IMG/VR virus record: IMGVR_UViG_3300020723_000223
Location: 1-44,880 of that record
DNA length: 44,880 nt
Direction: 5' to 3' (one strand)
From: a virus
Shown: positions 8,291-42,914 of the stretch, piece by piece
How positions within the stretch are numbered: the stretch's first letter is position 1
Layout: the number at the start of each line of letters is the position of its first letter
The notes under the pieces: model-generated
The model's input: only the letters and a program-made list of their open reading frames with translations
What the model was told of the DNA's origin: nothing
Database searches by the model: none
Program-made: the position numbers and the translations under genes

Positions 8291-10501
8291 TTAGATCACA
8301 ATTAATTCCGTAACCAATGTATGAGTATCAATGATAAGTTGTCCTTCAATGAAATCAACATTTGCGCGGCCGCCTTCTCTTAGCTTACCAAACAAGATTT
8401 CCTTGGACAATGCCTTCTTAATCTTCTCTTCAAATAAGCGTTCGAATGGCCTTGCGCCCATCTTAGGATCGTATCCGTTTTGTGCAAGCCAGTCACGTGC
8501 TTGCTGTGTAACATTAAGACTAATGTTCTTAGGAGCAAGCATAACTTCTGTCTTTTCAACTTCGGCATTAACAATCAAATTCATTTCAGTCATTGTGAGC
8601 TTATTGAATTTAACGGTAGCATCTAAGCGATTCCTGAATTCTGGGCTGAAGAATTTCTTAATCTCTGCTTCAACAGCACCACCATTGTCCTGATCACCAA
8701 AACCAATCTTAAGTTTTTCTGCATCAGCAGCACCTAAGTTGGCCGACATGATAATAACTACATTGGAGAAATCAACAGTCTTTCCCTTGGCAGAAGTTAA
8801 GCGGCCATCATCCATTACCTGTAATAGCACAGTAATAACATCTGGATTAGCCTTTTCAATTTCATCCAGCAATAACACACAATTTGGATGCGTATCGATT
8901 GTTTGAATAAGTTGCCCTTCGCCCATCTTACCCTCACCGTGGCCTACATAGCCGGGAGGTGCGCCGATAAACTTAGATACAGTATGTTTTTCCATGTATT
9001 CCGACATGTCAAAGCGTGCAAAATGTACACCCAATGCTTCTGCAAGCTTTTTAGCTGTATACGTCTTACCAGTACCAGTTGGTCCAGTAAACAAGAAGCT
9101 ACCAATTGGCTTACTTGGGTTACGCAATCCTGCCTTGGACATAAAGATGGCTTCGACAAGCTTATCAATTGCTCCATCCTGTCCATACACCTTATCCTTC
9201 ATTCTTGGTGCAAGATTTTCCAATGCTGTATTTTCTTTCATATCAATCATTGATGCCGGAATATGTGCAATCTTTGCTGCTTGTTGAACAACACAATCGA
9301 TTGTAACAACTTTTTCTTCCTTCAACTTAGAAATTGCACCAGCAGAGTCCATAATGTCAATTGCTTTGTCAGGGAAGAACTTAGATTTCAAATAACGATC
9401 AGCTAAGTCAACGCACATATCGGTTGCGCCCTCCTCAAAGGTAACACCGTGGAACTTTTCGTATTGATAAGCAATACCCTTAAGAATAAGTTTTGTTTCT
9501 GCTGCCGATGGTTGATTAATGTCATACTTCTGGAAACGACGCAGCAATGCTTTGTCCTTTTCAAAGTGTTCATGGAATTCATCGTATGTGGTTGCACCAA
9601 CACACATCAATTGACCTTTAGCAAGCATAGGTTTCAACAAATTGCCTGCATCCATCTGACTACCTGTAGTTGCACCAGCACCTAGAATCATGTGAATCTC
9701 GTCGATGAACATAATACAGTTGCCTTGTTTCTTGACTTGGTCAAGCACACCCTTCAACCGTTCCTCAAAGTCACCACGGAATTTTGTGCCTGCAAGCAAT
9801 GCACCAATATCCAAACTATACACAACCTTGTCGTGTAATGCTTTCGGAACTTCCTTGTTGACAATCTTAAGTGCAAGTCCTTCTGCAAGTGCTGTTTTAC
9901 CTACACCAGGTTCACCCACATAGATGACATTGTTCTTCTTGCGACGTGCCAAGATTTCAATTGTGTCAATAACTTCTTTTTCGCGCCCAATAACAGGATC
10001 AATAGATCCATCTGCTGCTTCTTTGTTTAAGTTGCGAGCAAATTGATCAAGGAATGTTTCACCCGGAGCGTCTTTCTCTTCTGCCTTACGCAAATGTGCA
10101 ATAATCTTTTCCCTTGTTACACCGTGTTTACCCAGGAAATAATAAGCATGACTAGTTTCTTCACCGAGGATGCTCAGTAAGATACCTTCATTTGTTAATT
10201 CATTCCTGCCGCTGAACACAAGTTGTGTTAGTGCTCGTTGGAATGTACGGTTTAGAACGGCCGTACGTTTTGCCGGTATGTCTTTGAGTGCATCTGGCTT
10301 CTTTAGTGCAGGATCGCCCAAAAATTGTACTGTTTCCGTCTTAATCTTTGCCGGCTGTCCGCCGATTGCAAGTATAAGTTCGTTTACATCTTTCTCATGT
10401 AACAATGATAGCAGGATATGTTCGAGCGTTACATATTCGTGATTGTTGTCATTTGCAACCGAAACTGCACGTTCAATCATCTTTTCTACTTTTTTAGTCA
10501 T
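8291..10501 (-). CDS. clpA: ClpA-type AAA+ unfoldase
   Basis: A full-length ClpA-like unfoldase of 736 residues, close to the ~758 of E. coli ClpA. The N-terminal Clp_N double repeat (residues ~1-140) is intact; in the family this is where ClpS docks. The first ATPase module has Walker A GEPGVGKT (196-203) and Walker B CIMFIDE (262-268). The second has Walker A GPTGTGKT (473-480) and Walker B VLLLDE (542-547). No long ClpB-type middle domain is present. An IGF tripeptide at 599-601 matches the ClpP-docking loop, so this is a protease partner and not a disaggregase. An AAGGA site precedes the ATG. The gene is last in an operon after IF-1 and DnaJ and is followed by a strong terminator. It probably pairs with the ClpP at 27605-28198 and ClpS at 39827-40132. 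Confidence 0.95.
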
Positions 10502-10509
10502 CTTTTTCC

Positions 10510-11337
10510 TTAAATATTAATACAGTATCTGTGGCTTAAAGATTTCAATGCAATCTTATCAGCTTCGGTCAAAGTTCTCGGAATTGTAATGGTAACACGA
10601 ACTAAAATATCACCATGTCTATCCGTTTCCGGATTCTTCATACCCTTACCTTCTAACCTGACTATTTGGCCGGGTTGGAGACCCGGGGGTATTGTAAACT
10701 GTAGTTTAGCACTATCTAAGTGCTCAAGTATAGCATCCACACCAATCATTGCTTCGATTGCATTAATTTCTATGTCAACAAGCAAATCATCATTGGCACG
10801 TTTGAATTTGTGATGTGGTTGTATATCAACCCTATATAGTTTATTATCAGCGAAAAATTTAGTTCCCGATCTAGCGCCACGTGGGATATTTATAACTGCC
10901 GATTGATCAACTTTAATTGTTCTGCCTGTGTATGCATCGGCTAGAGAAATATTTACAATATGAACAATTTGTTGTTTTGGTTGACCAAAGAAACCTTCAT
11001 TGAATTGACTATTCTGCGAAAAGAATGTTTTAAACATCTCTTCGAATTGTGCTGGATTACCGTTTGTACGATGGGTCCATTGTGGTTGGCTGGGCGAATC
11101 GGTTGCGTGACCGTGCATATCATAATGTCTACGTTTGTCGACATCACTAAGAGTTTCATAGGCCTCTTTGACCTCTTTAAATTTTTCCTCAGCCTGCTTT
11201 TTTTCGGGCGAACCATCAGCGCCTGTAATCTTATCAGGGTGATATTTGCTCGCAAGCTGTCGATAAGCTTTTTTTATTTCGTCTTCTGACGAATCCTTTG
11301 CAAGTCCAAGGATTTCGTAATAATCCTTTTTGCTCAT
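10510..11337 (-). CDS. DnaJ/CbpA-type J-domain co-chaperone
   Basis: A 275-residue Hsp40. The J domain spans residues ~5-75 with the Hsp70-activating HPD at 33-35. A Gly/Phe-poor linker follows, then the two beta-barrel DnaJ C-terminal domains (residues ~120-265), including the [10 protein letters not shown] and [18 protein letters not shown] signatures. The CxxCxGxG zinc-finger domain is absent, so the architecture is CbpA-like. It would deliver substrates to host DnaK, since no DnaK is encoded in the window. It lies between infA and clpA in one operon, linking folding, degradation and translation functions. The ribosome binding site (AGAAAG) is weak. Confidence 0.92.
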
Positions 11338-27258: not shown

Positions 27259-27585
27259 CTACCCGAAATTGACGCTCGAACCGCAACCGCAACTAGATTT
27301 AACATTTGGATTATTAAAAACAAATGCTTCACCCATAAGATCTTTCTTATAGTCGATCTCTGCTTCGTCTAAATATGTATTGCTCATTGGATCAATCAAT
27401 AAGGTATGAGTATCATCGAGATGATATTCGAAATCTTCATCAATGTCTTGCTTTTCTTCTACAGCGAAATAGTAACTCATTCCGTTACAACCGCCACCCT
27501 GCAGTCCAAATCGGAGAAGAGTTGCCTTCTCTCCAATAAGGACATCAATCATTTTTTGTTTTGCTAAATCTGTAATTGTAATCAT
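27259..27585 (-). CDS. A-type iron-sulfur carrier (IscA/ErpA family)
   Basis: A 108-residue A-type carrier with all three cluster-ligand cysteines: Cys33 in LQGGGCNGMSY and Cys99/Cys101 in SSCGCGSS. Members accept Fe-S clusters from the scaffold and pass them to apo-enzymes such as ErpA targets. In a phage it may mature a phage-encoded or host Fe-S enzyme. The GATAAATA promoter (27590-27597) ends four bases before the ATG, with no room for a ribosome binding site, so translation is predicted from a leaderless message. Confidence 0.92.
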   Translation of the reverse strand: MITITDLAKQKMIDVLIGEKATLLRFGLQGGGCNGMSYYFAVEEKQDIDEDFEYHLDDTHTLLIDPMSNTYLDEAEIDYKKDLMGEAFVFNNPNVKSSCGCGSSVNFG

Positions 27586-27604: not shown

Positions 27605-28198
27605 TTATGCTCTCTTTTCTATAATATGATCTGCTAAACCCAGTTCCACTGCCTGCGGCGCTGTTAACCATTTATCACGATCCATATGCTGTTTAAATTG
27701 TTCAAAAGTGGTACCTCTCGAATTATGCTTCACATATAGTTCAGTCATTTCCTTCTTAATACGAAGACTCTCAATTAAATCAATTTCCATATCGGAAACC
27801 TTACCCCGTGTTCCTGAAGAGGGTTGATGAATCATTGTAATTGCGCGTGGTAGCAAATATCTATGACCTGGTTCGCCGGCCTGAGCAATAAAACTGCCCA
27901 TACTTGCAGCCATACCGGTCACATATGTATATACAGGACATTTTACATACTGCATAAGGTCATAAACTGCTAGGCCGTCATAAACACTTCCGCCACCAGA
28001 ATTAATATACATATTAATTGGTTGTTCTGGATTTTCAGCTTCAAGAAATAACAATTGTGCAACCATAATATTACACATATTTGTTTCAACATCTCCTGTA
28101 AAGAATACTACCCGTTCCTTGAGTAATCTACTATACAAATCATAGCTGCGTTCGCCGCGAGCTGTCTGTTCTACAACCATTGGTACCAATGTGGACAT
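27605..28198 (-). CDS. clpP: ClpP protease subunit
   Basis: A 197-residue ClpP with an intact triad: Ser99 in [11 protein letters not shown], His124 in TMIHQPSSG, and Asp175 in [16 protein letters not shown] by alignment. [16 protein letters not shown] is the oxyanion region. The N-terminus ([20 protein letters not shown]) resembles the E. coli axial-loop region, so an ATPase-gated 14-mer is expected. Phage ClpA and ClpX homologues carry docking loops, and phage subunits might also mix with the host's. AAGG lies upstream of the ATG; no clear promoter was identified. It diverges from the plus-strand gene at 28257. Confidence 0.95.
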
Positions 28199-38006: not shown

Positions 38007-38035
38007 ATTATGTGCTAATGTGCGAATCTTGTCAA
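38007..38035 (-). promoter_or_regulatory. Sigma70-like promoter
   Basis: TTGACA, 17-nt spacer and CATAAT on the minus strand. The -35 overlaps the stop of the 59-aa gene and the -10 is six bases from the next ATG. Confidence 0.75.
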
Positions 38036-38211
38036 TCGGTGTCTTCGGAATTGACTTCTTTATCTATTATGTATTGTGCCATCTCGGGTGGCATTGTTAG
38101 ATACATCCTATCGTGATGTTTTTCGCAATATGCTTTACCAAATACAGTAGGATGGCGACAACCTTCGCCGTCTCCAATCCACGCACACACCTGCCTATCT
38201 ATCTCATTCAT
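38032..38211 (-). CDS. Small zinc-motif protein (59 aa)
   Basis: A 59-residue protein with VCAWIGDGEGCRHPTVFGKA then YCEKHHDRMY, so Cys9, Cys18, Cys29 and His32 form a probable zinc site. It ends MPPEMAQYIIDKEVNSEDTD. Similar C..C..YC..H mini-proteins are frequent in aquatic T4-like phages. The ribosome binding site is weak (TTGAG). Function unknown. Confidence 0.6.
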   Translation of the reverse strand: MNEIDRQVCAWIGDGEGCRHPTVFGKAYCEKHHDRMYLTMPPEMAQYIIDKEVNSEDTD

Positions 38212-38224
38212 TTTATTCTCAAAG

Positions 38225-38364
38225 TGGTGCGATATCGTGTAACACTTCTAACCACGGACCTGGAGGTTAAAAACCAACTGCTCTAAGTGTAACTAAAAAT
38301 AATATAGAGCCAAGTGGCGCCACCGTATGTCTAGAGACTATTCGTTTTTCTGAGCTAATGCCGC
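38225..38364 (-). tRNA. Degenerate tRNA-like element with D-loop insertion (possible Lys-UUU)
   Basis: On the minus strand a tRNA framework is visible: 5' acceptor GCGGCAT against 3' ATATCGC (six of seven pairs, one a wobble), discriminator A and an encoded CCA, and D stem GCTC/GAGC after TA. An anticodon arm follows with loop TTTTTAA (anticodon TTT) but only three of five stem pairs, then AGGTC and a T stem CGTGG/ACACG (four of five pairs). The T loop is 11 nt (TTAGAAGTGTT) instead of 7, and the D loop carries ~65 nt, including the palindrome GTGGCGCCAC. TTAGAGCAGTTG also matches common tRNA-Lys sequence. It could be a decayed tRNA, an inserted tRNA or a tRNA mimic. No coding sequence is seen here. 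Confidence 0.35.
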
Positions 38365-38383
38365 ATAAGCAAGTATAGCAGGA

Positions 38384-38710
38384 TTATTCTAACTCTTCAA
38401 GATGTTCAAGGATGATTTTATCATAATCGTGCTTGACAGCATATTCGATAATTTCTGATAATGCTACTTCATCTTCCGATGTTGCGAACCAAAGTATCCT
38501 GTTTGGATCAATCTCATCCATACCTGTCAATACAGCTTTACATTTTTCAATATAAGATGCGTAGCCACCAAATATGTCTGTATACGGGCCTAATGTGGCA
38601 GATAAGAGTTCTGTAAATGGAATTACTTGAATAGTGCTGATGACATGGCCACTTGGATCGGCAACCGTATAATCTGTGCCTAATGCTGTAATATCTGTTA
38701 TTTTGTACAT
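38384..38710 (-). CDS. Unknown phage protein (108 aa)
   Basis: An acidic 108-residue protein, beginning MYKITDITALGTDYTVADPS and ending in a charged helix (DYDKIILEHLEELE). GGAGA lies before the ATG, and AATAAATA (38725-38732) and TATAAATA (38754-38761) are upstream. It is transcribed toward the tRNA-like element. Function unknown. Confidence 0.55.
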   Translation of the reverse strand: MYKITDITALGTDYTVADPSGHVISTIQVIPFTELLSATLGPYTDIFGGYASYIEKCKAVLTGMDEIDPNRILWFATSEDEVALSEIIEYAVKHDYDKIILEHLEELE

Positions 38711-39826: not shown

Positions 39827-40132
39827 TTAAAGTTCTTCGAACGTTGGAGTTAAAGGAAAATTGTTTGCTCTGGAAAAACTAATCGTTTCCAAAGTCTTTT
39901 CCTCTGCTACTTCTCTTGTATATGGCGCACCTGCAATACCTTGTCCGGTGACATGGATGGCCTTTGTTATCTCAAGTGCTTCTTCAGCAGTCTTATGAAA
40001 GATGCGTGTGAGCACAGAGATTACAAAATCAAATGTAGTCTTGTCGTCATTGTGAAGTAATACCTTATACATTTTTGGGATGACAACCTTAATAGTTTCG
40101 TCAATCTTTTCAATAACTTCAATTTCAGGCAT
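39827..40132 (-). CDS. clpS: ClpS N-degron adaptor
   Basis: A 101-residue ClpS. The core [20 protein letters not shown] carries the Asn/Asp pocket residues (28-30), and [11 protein letters not shown] holds the conserved His60. TREVAEEKT is the helix facing ClpA. ClpS delivers proteins with N-terminal Leu, Phe, Trp or Tyr to ClpAP. The pocket gatekeeper corresponding to E. coli Met40 is Phe34 here. The ATG at 40132 (AAGGAAG upstream) overlaps the endonuclease stop; the longer frame to 40174 has no initiation signal. Confidence 0.93.
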
Positions 40133-40769
40133 GATATTCTTCCTTGTTTGTATATGTATTGTATCTCTTAGCAAGAGATATATTATCCTTATGTTCTTGC
40201 GTTCTTACAGGTTTCGGACGACCCTTCAATGCTGCCGAAATTTTATCTTTATGTTCTTGCGTATGTGGTATCTGTTTCTTACCTGTATGACTTATAGAAA
40301 TCTTCATTTTTACTTCCTCAGAGCGTGTCTTACCTCTTTTGGTTCTTGCCATATTTTCTATATGTTCGGGTGTTTGTTGTTTTCCGATCTTAGACAAGGA
40401 CATTTTTTCCTTTGTCTCTTCTGAAAATATTCTACCAGTTAGTGATGCTGAAAGTTTATCTTTGTGCTCTTTTGTAAAAATTGCCCCAATCGATCCTTCA
40501 CCACCTTCGGTTCTGTTATGTAAGATACCTGTACCTATATCTTTTCTTCCGTACCATCTAATCATTCTTCGTTCTAGACATAAAGAACCAAATTCAGTTA
40601 ATTTTGTTTCTAGAAATACTATATTATTTTTATCTGCTGGTACAGATACACCTTTATGTTTTCGATATGCTCGATTACCAGATCCCTTACCTATATAGTA
40701 AGGTGTTCCGCACCCGGCAACTATCGATTCTTGCGATCTAATGTATGCGTAAACATAAAAATTTTTCAT
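40125..40769 (-). CDS. GIY-YIG homing endonuclease with NUMOD3 repeats
   Basis: The GIY-YIG core is FYVYAYIR...[18 protein letters not shown] (residues ~4-38), with Glu in CLERRMI. Several NUMOD3 repeats follow ([56 protein letters not shown]). It lies between hsp20 and clpS and overlaps the clpS start by 8 nt, so the nuclease and adaptor share a message from the promoter at 40798-40826. Confidence 0.88.
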
Positions 40770-40779
40770 CTGTCCAAAT

Positions 40780-40814
40780 CCTAGGTGTGTAACATGTATT
40801 ATTGCACACCTAGG
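40780..40814 (-). promoter_or_regulatory. Inverted repeat around the endonuclease-clpS promoter
   Basis: CCTAGGTGTG / CACACCTAGG, 10-bp perfect arms with a 15-nt gap. One arm lies in the promoter spacer and the other near the expected transcription start. It could be an operator, or a weak terminator for hsp20. Confidence 0.5.
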
Positions 40815-40826
40815 TCCCTATGTCAA
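40798..40826 (-). promoter_or_regulatory. Sigma70-like promoter upstream of endonuclease and clpS
   Basis: TTGACA, 17-nt spacer and AATAAT on the minus strand. Confidence 0.7.
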
Positions 40827-40832
40827 TAGAGT

Positions 40833-41243
40833 TTACTTGATAGCGATAAGCTTAGGCTTCGCTTCATCAGGTATATTTTTTATAAAACTAACTGTGAGAA
40901 TACCATCTTCCATAGTAGCATTGTTCACTTCAAAGTATTCCGCAATACGGAAACTCTTTGAGAATGATCGGCCTGCAATTCCACGGTATTGATATTCAGA
41001 TTCGGGACTTAATCCCTTATCACCTTGGATTGTTAACAATCCTTGATGTTCTTCCATTTTTACTTCACTTTTCTTAAAACCTGCCACAGCAAGTTCTAAA
41101 TAGAACTCATCATCAGAAACTCTGACAATATTGTGTGGTGGATAGTTATTATTTTGAAATTGAAAATCTCTGAATGCTGGTGCAAAACCAACGCTCATGG
41201 ATTCGAGTTGATTAAATAATCGTGTGAAATCATTGTGTGACAT
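40833..41243 (-). CDS. Hsp20 small heat-shock protein
   Basis: A 136-residue alpha-crystallin protein: FYLELAVAGFKKSEVKMEEH opens the core and GIAGRSFSKSFRIAE, DGILTV and IPDEAKPKLIAIK follow, as in IbpA-type and phage Hsp20s. It holds unfolded proteins for later refolding or degradation. AAGGAG precedes the ATG. The ~97-nt leader from the GATAAATA at 41340-41347 contains CCCATGGTGGG and GCGGTATGACACCGC hairpins. Confidence 0.93.
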   Translation of the reverse strand: MSHNDFTRLFNQLESMSVGFAPAFRDFQFQNNNYPPHNIVRVSDDEFYLELAVAGFKKSEVKMEEHQGLLTIQGDKGLSPESEYQYRGIAGRSFSKSFRIAEYFEVNNATMEDGILTVSFIKNIPDEAKPKLIAIK

Positions 41244-41339
41244 AATTACTCCTTAAGCAAGTTTATCGTGCTATATCAAAACACGTTGCGGTGTCATACC
41301 GCTAAATTGTAAAACCCCACCATGGGCATCTTACACATT

Positions 41340-41347
41340 TATTTATC
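41340..41347 (-). promoter_or_regulatory. Late promoter of hsp20
   Basis: GATAAATA on the minus strand, 97 nt before the hsp20 ATG; the longest apparent leader in the window. Confidence 0.5.
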
Positions 41348-41382
41348 TCTGATAAACTCAAGATATTAGTATTATAAAAGAT

Positions 41383-41406
41383 AAAAGGCTTGATGTCAAG
41401 CCTTTT
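41383..41406 (-). terminator. Terminator after the bS21 gene
   Basis: AAAAGGCTTGA / TCAAGCCTTTT with a two-base nominal loop. Confidence 0.85.
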
Positions 41407-41425
41407 AAGTAACGTAAAACCTAGA

Positions 41426-41686
41426 TTAATATTTCTTGTCTTTGTGCCACTGCCCGTTAGTAATCATTTCTTCGACAGATCTTTCCCAGCGTTTACGAGC
41501 TTGCTTCTTCATGCGTTGCTTCAATACAGCAGGCTTCTCATAGGCCATTTTCTCTTTAACAATTTGAAGCAACCCAGAGTCCTGGACCTTCTTGCTAAAT
41601 GTACGCAAAGCCCGACCAAAGTCATCATTTCGTACTTCCACTGTCATGCCCCTGTGTTTTCTGCCGTCTCTGTATTGTTTACTCAT
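41426..41686 (-). CDS. rpsU: Ribosomal protein bS21 homologue
   Basis: An 86-residue bS21: [30 protein letters not shown] and [19 protein letters not shown] align with [30 protein letters not shown] and EFYEKPTTERKR of E. coli. It has an extra basic N-terminal stretch and a C-terminal QWHKDKKY. bS21 sits near the anti-Shine-Dalgarno end of 16S rRNA and influences initiation. The ATG at 41686 overlaps the clpX stop; the frame extends to 41716 inside clpX. It is followed by a terminator. Confidence 0.9.
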
Positions 41687-42914
41687 TGTTTGCTCGTTTC
41701 TTTGCCTTGTATACATGTTTAATTGTTCCTAACGCATCAACAAATATCTTGTTAACGCCATCCTTTGCTAATCGCGGTAAAATAAATTGCGTAGCTTGGA
41801 GGTCTCTTTCAATGATTGAACGTAAACCTCGCGCACCAATCTTTTGCTTTAAACACAATTCAGCTACATTAAGTAAGTATTTATCATCGAAGTCCAAAGT
41901 GACGCCTTCATATTTAAATAATGCTTTAAACTGCTCAATAATACTGTTCTTTGGTTCTTTTAAGATACGAATCAACATATCTATTGTTACATCATCGAAA
42001 ACAACTGTAACAGGGCAGCGACCAACAAACTCCGGAATAAGACCATATTTGATAAGATCATCTGGCTGTATATTCTTAATTGCTTGAGAGAATGGAACCT
42101 TCATATTCAAACTAGCACCAATACCAATACTCGTCTTTGACCGATTCTTTCTAATAACTTCATCTAGTCCCACAAAGGCACCACTACATATAAACAATAT
42201 ATCTTTTGTGTCAAAATCAATAGGATCTTCAAAGCCATCATCAATCTTTACAATGGTACCTTCAATGAGTTTTAGCAATGCCTGCTGTACACCTTCTCCT
42301 GATACATCTCTGCTAACCGATGCAGATTCACTCCTGCGACTTTTCTTATCGATTTCGTCAATAAAAACAATTCCCATACGTGCTCTATCTAAATCGTCAT
42401 CAGCATTGGCAACAAGGCGTCGGATTAAATTTTCTACATCTTCGCCTACATAACCTGCTTCAGTTAATGTGGTGGCATCTGCTATTACATATGGTAGGTC
42501 AAACAATTTAGCTATGGTCTTTACAGCAAGTGTCTTACCGCATCCACTCTCGCCAATCATTAATAAATTAGACTTTTCAATTTCAGTTTTAGTCTTATTA
42601 TTGATACGTTTGTAATGATTATATACTGCTACAGAAATAGCAATCTTTGCTCCATCTTGTCCTATAACATATTCATCTAGGTAAGCCTTGATAGCTTCAG
42701 GAGTAGGAACTTTTTCTTTCTTCTTTTTTGTTACTACATCTATTTCTTCTGTATGTAATATATTGTATGTAACATCTACACATTCGTTGCAGATATAGAT
42801 ATTCTTACCATTGAATTCAGGGCCTTCAACCATTTGTTCAACTTGATGTCGATTCTTTCCACAGTAGGAACAATTGACTATCTTCTTAATTCCGGTATCT
42901 TCAGTTTTGTCCAT
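41679..42914 (-). CDS. clpX: ClpX-type AAA+ unfoldase
   Basis: A 411-residue ClpX, the length of host ClpX. The zinc-binding domain has Cys15, Cys18, Cys42 and Cys45 (CSYCGKN...CNECVD). Walker A is GESGCGKT (121-128), the pore loop GYVGED (154-159), Walker [10 protein letters not shown] (182-190), and [16 protein letters not shown] follows. The ClpP-docking loop reads IGI (263-265) where E. coli has [15 protein letters not shown] and [12 protein letters not shown] complete the family signatures. GAGG precedes the ATG, which overlaps the upstream membrane-protein gene. It is co-transcribed with bS21. Confidence 0.95.

Follow-up and report, generated by a model that had tools for sequence, protein, structure and literature searches.

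We found that the minus strand of the window (the whole 44,880-nt stretch of phage DNA analyzed here) carries a tRNA-shaped RNA of 140 bases. Its first position, acceptor nucleotide 1, is 38364, and an encoded CCA brings it to an end at 38225. It is a previously undescribed, conserved RNA of large uncultivated phages, and both gene finders and Rfam overlook it. Comparison of its copies indicates that it almost certainly folds into a tRNA acceptor stem, D stem, anticodon arm, and T arm, with a hairpin in the D loop and a pseudoknot, and that it is very probably not a decoding tRNA. A tRNA-derived, nondecoding RNA that acts in trans as a mimic or decoy is the explanation that we put forward for the whole of these observations, at a little below even confidence.

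The window copy has the arms of a tRNA. Its acceptor strands, GCGGCAT (38358 to 38364) and ATATCGC (38229 to 38235), pair at 6/7 positions and lead through UA, at positions 8 and 9, into a D stem formed by GCTC (38352 to 38355; the same in 27/27 copies) and GAGC (38280 to 38283; GAGC in 26 copies and GAGT in 1). The 68-nt D loop holds an inserted hairpin (38291 to 38346) with the tip GGCGCC (38321 to 38316), followed by ACACU (38286 to 38290). The anticodon arm (38262 to 38278) reads GTTGG-TTTTTAA-CCTCC, with only 3/5 stem pairs formed; its loop, UUUUUAA (38273 to 38267), ends in U36-A37-A38, and the variable AGGTC comes next. In the T arm (38236 to 38256; 11-nt loop UUAGAAGUGUU), the stem CGTGG/ACACG pairs at 4/5 positions around the loop TTAGAAGTGTT, which contains AGUGU (38246 to 38242). 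A73 and the encoded CCA close the element (38225 to 38228, with CCA at 38227 to 38225). Thus, the arms, CCA, TTT anticodon, anticodon-stem mismatches, D-loop insertion, and enlarged T loop described in the original prediction are all present.

Judged by the window copy alone (its fold, ARAGORN, and Rfam), chance could have been the explanation. Folded by itself, this copy was no more stable than shuffled sequences (z = +1.19). ARAGORN called nothing in the window, and the same was true of the local stretch with introns allowed at the normal threshold. The original prediction had looked to a relaxed tRNA covariance search for support; Rfam gave no hit at the gathering score, and even up to an E value of 10 nothing of tRNA type was matched. 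However, conservation sets the element apart from a chance resemblance. We recovered 27 distinct homologs (72 to 163 bits) in related IMG/VR phage contigs, and the anticipated conservation in sister phages was borne out. A decayed tRNA or chance resemblance would agree with the z score and the imperfect anticodon stem of the window copy, but the covariation described below and the 27 homologs refute it for the family, and its probability is close to nil. The more specific idea of a decayed tRNA-Lys fell, for the family, for the same kind of reason: compensatory changes are found in the stems and pseudoknot across 27 sequences, and the triplets are not Lys specific.

Homologs were collected through relatives of the nearby RNA ligase (which gave the element in 13 other loci), through DNA patterns, and through relatives of a 345-aa gene. 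A pattern built from the T arm alone gave mostly chance matches; longer patterns were specific, except for L183. The element was not found in 50,697 records of phage isolates, and a pattern search of bacterial and archaeal species genomes gave no match to it. One relative of the 345-aa gene comes from a metagenome bin of Methylococcaceae, where its contig is short; this is a weak pointer to the host. Element-bearing contigs include three large ones of 363, 369, and 385 kb, and the records of these large relatives (G015, G020, and G021) each gave 44 to 49 tRNA matches, with several copies for some anticodons. The element has been kept by selection across about 50% protein divergence, in phages of up to 385 kb that have large tRNA sets.

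In a MAFFT alignment built without structure, 24/44 pairs changed on both sides, compared with 13.7 in shuffles and 6 to 9 in slid controls. In a structure-fitted alignment, 94% of the cells were paired. The acceptor stem was 98.6% paired across the family, with 6/7 pairs compensated, and most of it is replaced in L003. All five pairs of the anticodon stem were compensated family-wide. The D-loop insert forms a hairpin of three stacked helices, with two-sided changes at 1/3 plus 6/7, 3/4, and 2/4 of their pairs. ACACU in the D loop and AGUGU in the T loop form a 5-bp helix (95% of cells paired) with changes on both sides at 3/5 pairs: C-G became U-A in L131, A-U became G-C in L132/L148, and U-A became A-U in L044. 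The complementarity between GTTACACTT and AAGTGTTAC that had been taken to allow an alternative fold is therefore a real, covarying D-loop/T-loop helix.

The canonical D-loop GG, the C56 elbow contact, and the 7-nt T loop are absent, and the pseudoknot is present instead. Because C56 occurs in only 2/27 copies, we take the pseudoknot as the replacement of the elbow: as shown by comparison of the copies, its five base pairs substitute for the usual contact of G18/G19 with U55/C56. The element is thus an example of how a tRNA elbow can be reengineered by base pairs. T loops are 11 to 13 nt long (13 in L136). In the copies of L132/L148 (5950 to 6125) the D loop reaches 101 nt, and a second extra hairpin separates the pseudoknot strand from the D stem.

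The hairpin tip is self-complementary. It is GGCGCC in nearly all copies and GGGCCC in L071, the sole counted lineage in which the palindrome is changed yet preserved; the L136 tip is ambiguous. The tip bears on the possibility of a trans-acting RNA with some other partner, such as a sponge for tRNA modification (for example, of t6A), an inhibitor of the ribosome or of an aminoacyl-tRNA synthetase, or a scaffold dimerizing through GGCGCC, comparable to T4 species 1 RNA. U36-A37, the signature of t6A substrates, is kept, the palindrome is nearly universal, and the T4 rnaC layout appears similar. Since the palindrome is changed but kept in one lineage only, we consider such a role somewhat unlikely.

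A covariance model of the element (R1) scores canonical tRNAs over their full length with the hairpin skipped; T4 tRNA-Thr scored 54 bits, and many phage tRNAs scored 40 to 54. That the model picks up ordinary phage tRNAs indicates that the element is derived from tRNA. U8, A9, A14, G15, A21, G46, C48, U54, G57, and A58 are present in 26 to 27 of the 27 copies, and the cloverleaf and the core tertiary residues (U8, A14, G15, G46, C48, U54, and A58) are those of a tRNA. The positions tied to translation behave differently. U33 is found in 12/27 copies and A33 in 15/27; the triplets vary (CUU, UUU, GAU, UCU, UGU, and UAU), even between close relatives (UUU in the window and GAU in L002). U36-A37-A38 is present in 27/27 copies, with positions 34 and 35 free, and some anticodon loops have 8 nt. 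CCA is encoded in 16/27 copies; among the canonical tRNAs that we sampled from large relatives in this clade, the figure is 92/95 (P = 2e-6). We regard decoding as very improbable because the family has not conserved U33, anticodon identity, C56, or CCA.

These data also bear on the alternative of a working but eccentric tRNA, for Lys, Ile, Arg, or Thr depending on the phage. In that case, the D-loop hairpin would either be tolerated in place or be removed by splicing in which the RNA ligase assists. Many copies have CCA and A73, the anticodons with U36-A37-A38 are plausible, the L-shape core is kept, and an RNA ligase is close by in many loci. However, A33 and 8-nt loops, the loss of CCA in 11/27 copies, the loss of C56, and isoacceptor switches between close relatives do not suit a working tRNA. 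Removal of the hairpin would restore neither G18G19 nor a 7-nt T loop, the large relatives have big tRNA sets elsewhere, and the ligase is missing at four element-bearing loci. This alternative is therefore very unlikely, and we rejected a ligase-dependent D-loop intron in particular, because the remainder would have neither GG nor a 7-nt T loop and because of the four ligase-free loci. The anatomy is nevertheless that of a tRNA with an unusual insertion, as first proposed. Separately, another ligase-bearing phage has a tRNA-Arg(UCU)-like gene (L119:1501-1689, minus strand; record G005:46388-46576) with a D-loop insertion of about 110 nt, seemingly between TGG repeats; it has a canonical T loop and CCA, and its sequence is unrelated to the element.

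The RNA ligase gene (PF09414; 37002 to 37628, minus strand) lies about 0.6 kb from the element, with three small open reading frames in between. It is syntenic, but the linkage that the original prediction found attractive is loose: element-bearing relatives number 15 with a ligase at this locus and 4 without one, and 1 locus has a ligase without the element (Fisher P = 0.07). An RNA ligase was found somewhere in 7/9 records searched. Elsewhere in the window there is a large proteostasis gene set (8291 to 11337, 27605 to 28198, and 39827 to 42914) that includes ClpS by Pfam; inspection of the translations by eye adds ClpX, ClpP, a ClpA-like ATPase, Hsp20, and DnaJ. Fe-S cluster assembly genes are also present, encoding a SufBD-core protein (PF01458; 38757 to 39794) and, by eye, an IscA-like protein (27259 to 27585). 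A NUMOD3 (GIY-YIG-like) endonuclease reading frame (40125 to 40769), variably present in relatives, overlaps that of ClpS by 50 bases.

Directly upstream of the element, always and at a near-constant distance, is the gene for a 108-aa protein with no assigned function (38384 to 38710, minus strand). Usually next downstream is that for a 59-aa Cys/His-rich protein with a weak WRC match (38032 to 38211, minus strand). Both of these small proteins are conserved. A sigma70-like promoter is predicted on the minus strand at 38372 to 38400, with a start at or beside acceptor nucleotide 1; it consists of a -35 TTGAAG (38400 to 38395), a 17-nt spacer with an extended TGn, and a -10 TATACT (38377 to 38372). 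A similar site (TTGANG, 17 nt, and often TGnTATAAT) precedes the element in all copies but L044, is weak in L058 and L144, and is TTGACA-17-TATTAT in L071; the final part of the 108-aa gene overlaps the -35, the conservation of which is therefore partly coding. Across copies the -10 ends 5 to 7 nt before acceptor nucleotide 1, so the RNA probably begins at the acceptor stem from its own promoter. No terminator is evident after the element, and the 3' end would then have to come from processing.

With a promoter directly upstream, no visible terminator, and the next start codon mostly 10 to 20 nt or less from its 3' end, the element could instead work in cis, as a tRNA-like 5' leader or an RNase P/RNase Z processing signal for the downstream 59-aa gene. 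However, in L004/L048, L006, L014, L044, L132, and L136, the downstream gene has been displaced or another gene takes its place, in several cases with a promoter of its own. The place after the 108-aa gene is fixed and the gene downstream changes; therefore, the element is not the leader of one gene, and we rejected it as a leader of the 59-aa gene. Furthermore, four relatives (L123/L124, L133, L146, and L151) retain the 59-aa gene directly after the 108-aa gene, with the element cleanly absent. A cis-acting role is thus quite unlikely. In a tree of the 345-aa protein, the four absences are scattered and need four changes, and therefore the element is dispensable. Clean absence in four lineages fits an accessory function, and accessory roles other than counter-defense are equally compatible.

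We therefore return to the mimic. The element is a phage-encoded, tRNA-derived structured RNA of about 140 nt, probably transcribed from its own promoter so that the acceptor stem forms the 5' end. Its action is probably in trans, as a mimic of tRNA, on an enzyme that would recognize the tRNA body together with U36-A37-A38. The role that we think most likely is that of a decoy or a cleavage-resistant competitor against host tRNA-cleaving defenses; a cleavage-resistant competitor would fit, speculatively, and a tRNA-cleaving defense as the target is a tentative suggestion. For some phage tRNAs, resistance to tRNA-cleaving enzymes is known or has been predicted (PMC11455837, PMC10264068). The targets of AriB, of the PARIS system, share U36AAU, and PrrC requires ct6A37 (PMC12409363); both enzymes would match the U36-A37-A38 determinant in part. 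C39 in most copies speaks against AriB, as AriB-type sites need U39, and U36-A37-A38 may be no more than the legacy of an ancestral tRNA that read an ANN codon. We count the 44 to 49 tRNAs elsewhere in the largest relatives, together with their RNA ligases, as support for a mimic. In a more detailed version, which is unlikely as a whole, the tRNA fold with its pseudoknot elbow would be abundant, would pair tip to tip through the D-arm hairpins, and would trap or inhibit host enzymes that cut U36-A37-A38 tRNAs; if true, this would be a new class of viral RNA in large phages. As for the anticodon nuclease bait of the original prediction, the mimic has stood as the best-fitting reading, and the bait role is one that we infer rather than demonstrate. 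The element is a concrete candidate for RNA-based counter-defense.

We compared the element with known RNAs, and those of the tRNA, tmRNA, and YrlA families each differ from it in at least one tested defining feature. It shares with canonical tRNA (RF00005) the acceptor stem, D stem, anticodon and T arms, and the residues of U8-A14, G15-C48, and U54-A58. In contrast to tRNA, its D loop is 68 nt (101 in L132/L148) and its T loop 11 nt (13 in L136), C56 and U33 are not kept, the anticodon is free, CCA is optional, and ARAGORN and RF00005 miss it. T5 tRNA-Lys, active against PARIS AriB, is also a phage tRNA-like RNA with an altered anticodon arm, and the element has U36-A-A in common with AriB targets (PMC12409363, PMC11455837). 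However, defense-evading phage tRNAs are working tRNAs, whereas the element has no sign of decoding. The Bacillus cereus pseudo-tRNA tRNA-Other is a nontranslating tRNA-like RNA (PMC3399842), but it is bacterial and flanks an island.

tmRNA likewise has a tRNA-like 3' half, but the element has a real anticodon arm and no tag reading frame. It was matched by neither the Rfam tmRNA models nor the ARAGORN tmRNA call, and G3-U70 is absent, the third acceptor pair being C-G or G-C in nearly all copies. We rejected a tmRNA whose tag would end at the conserved UAA, because the frames of the homologs disagree, an extra base occurs in some loops, and this UAA is part of a covarying anticodon arm. The bacterial Y RNA YrlA is similarly a modular RNA with a tRNA-like domain. 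Its ends pair in the Rsr-binding stem (PMC8394870), whereas those of the element make an acceptor stem. There was no Rfam match to it, and a Y RNA was rejected since no TROVE protein was found in nine phage records.

T4 species 1 RNA (rnaC, 139 nt), the function of which is still reported as unknown (PMC9697503), is also phage encoded and about 140 nt long, with an acceptor-like closing stem, a long hairpin at the D-arm position, and a canonical-looking T arm. Its layout (acceptor, long D-arm hairpin, anticodon-position hairpin, and T arm) was read from one fold and five sequences, and it folds strongly (z = -4.4). The gene is at 70908 to 71046 of AF158101 (L108:1409-1547, minus strand), where we noted an acceptor-like stem, a long D-position hairpin, a further hairpin, and a canonical T arm. 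The T arm and the CGTCAA loop are also retained by its Karamvirus and Kanagawavirus homologs. Unlike the element, rnaC has a canonical 7-nt rather than an 11-nt T loop, does not have the GCTC/GAGC D stem, and sits inside the tRNA cluster. In an R1 model search, T4 tRNAs scored and rnaC did not, which gives no evidence of homology, and we rejected homology on this ground. By analogy of layout, however, rnaC appears to be the nearest known counterpart of the element, and, the two layouts appearing similar, the element may help explain the role of T4 species 1 RNA.
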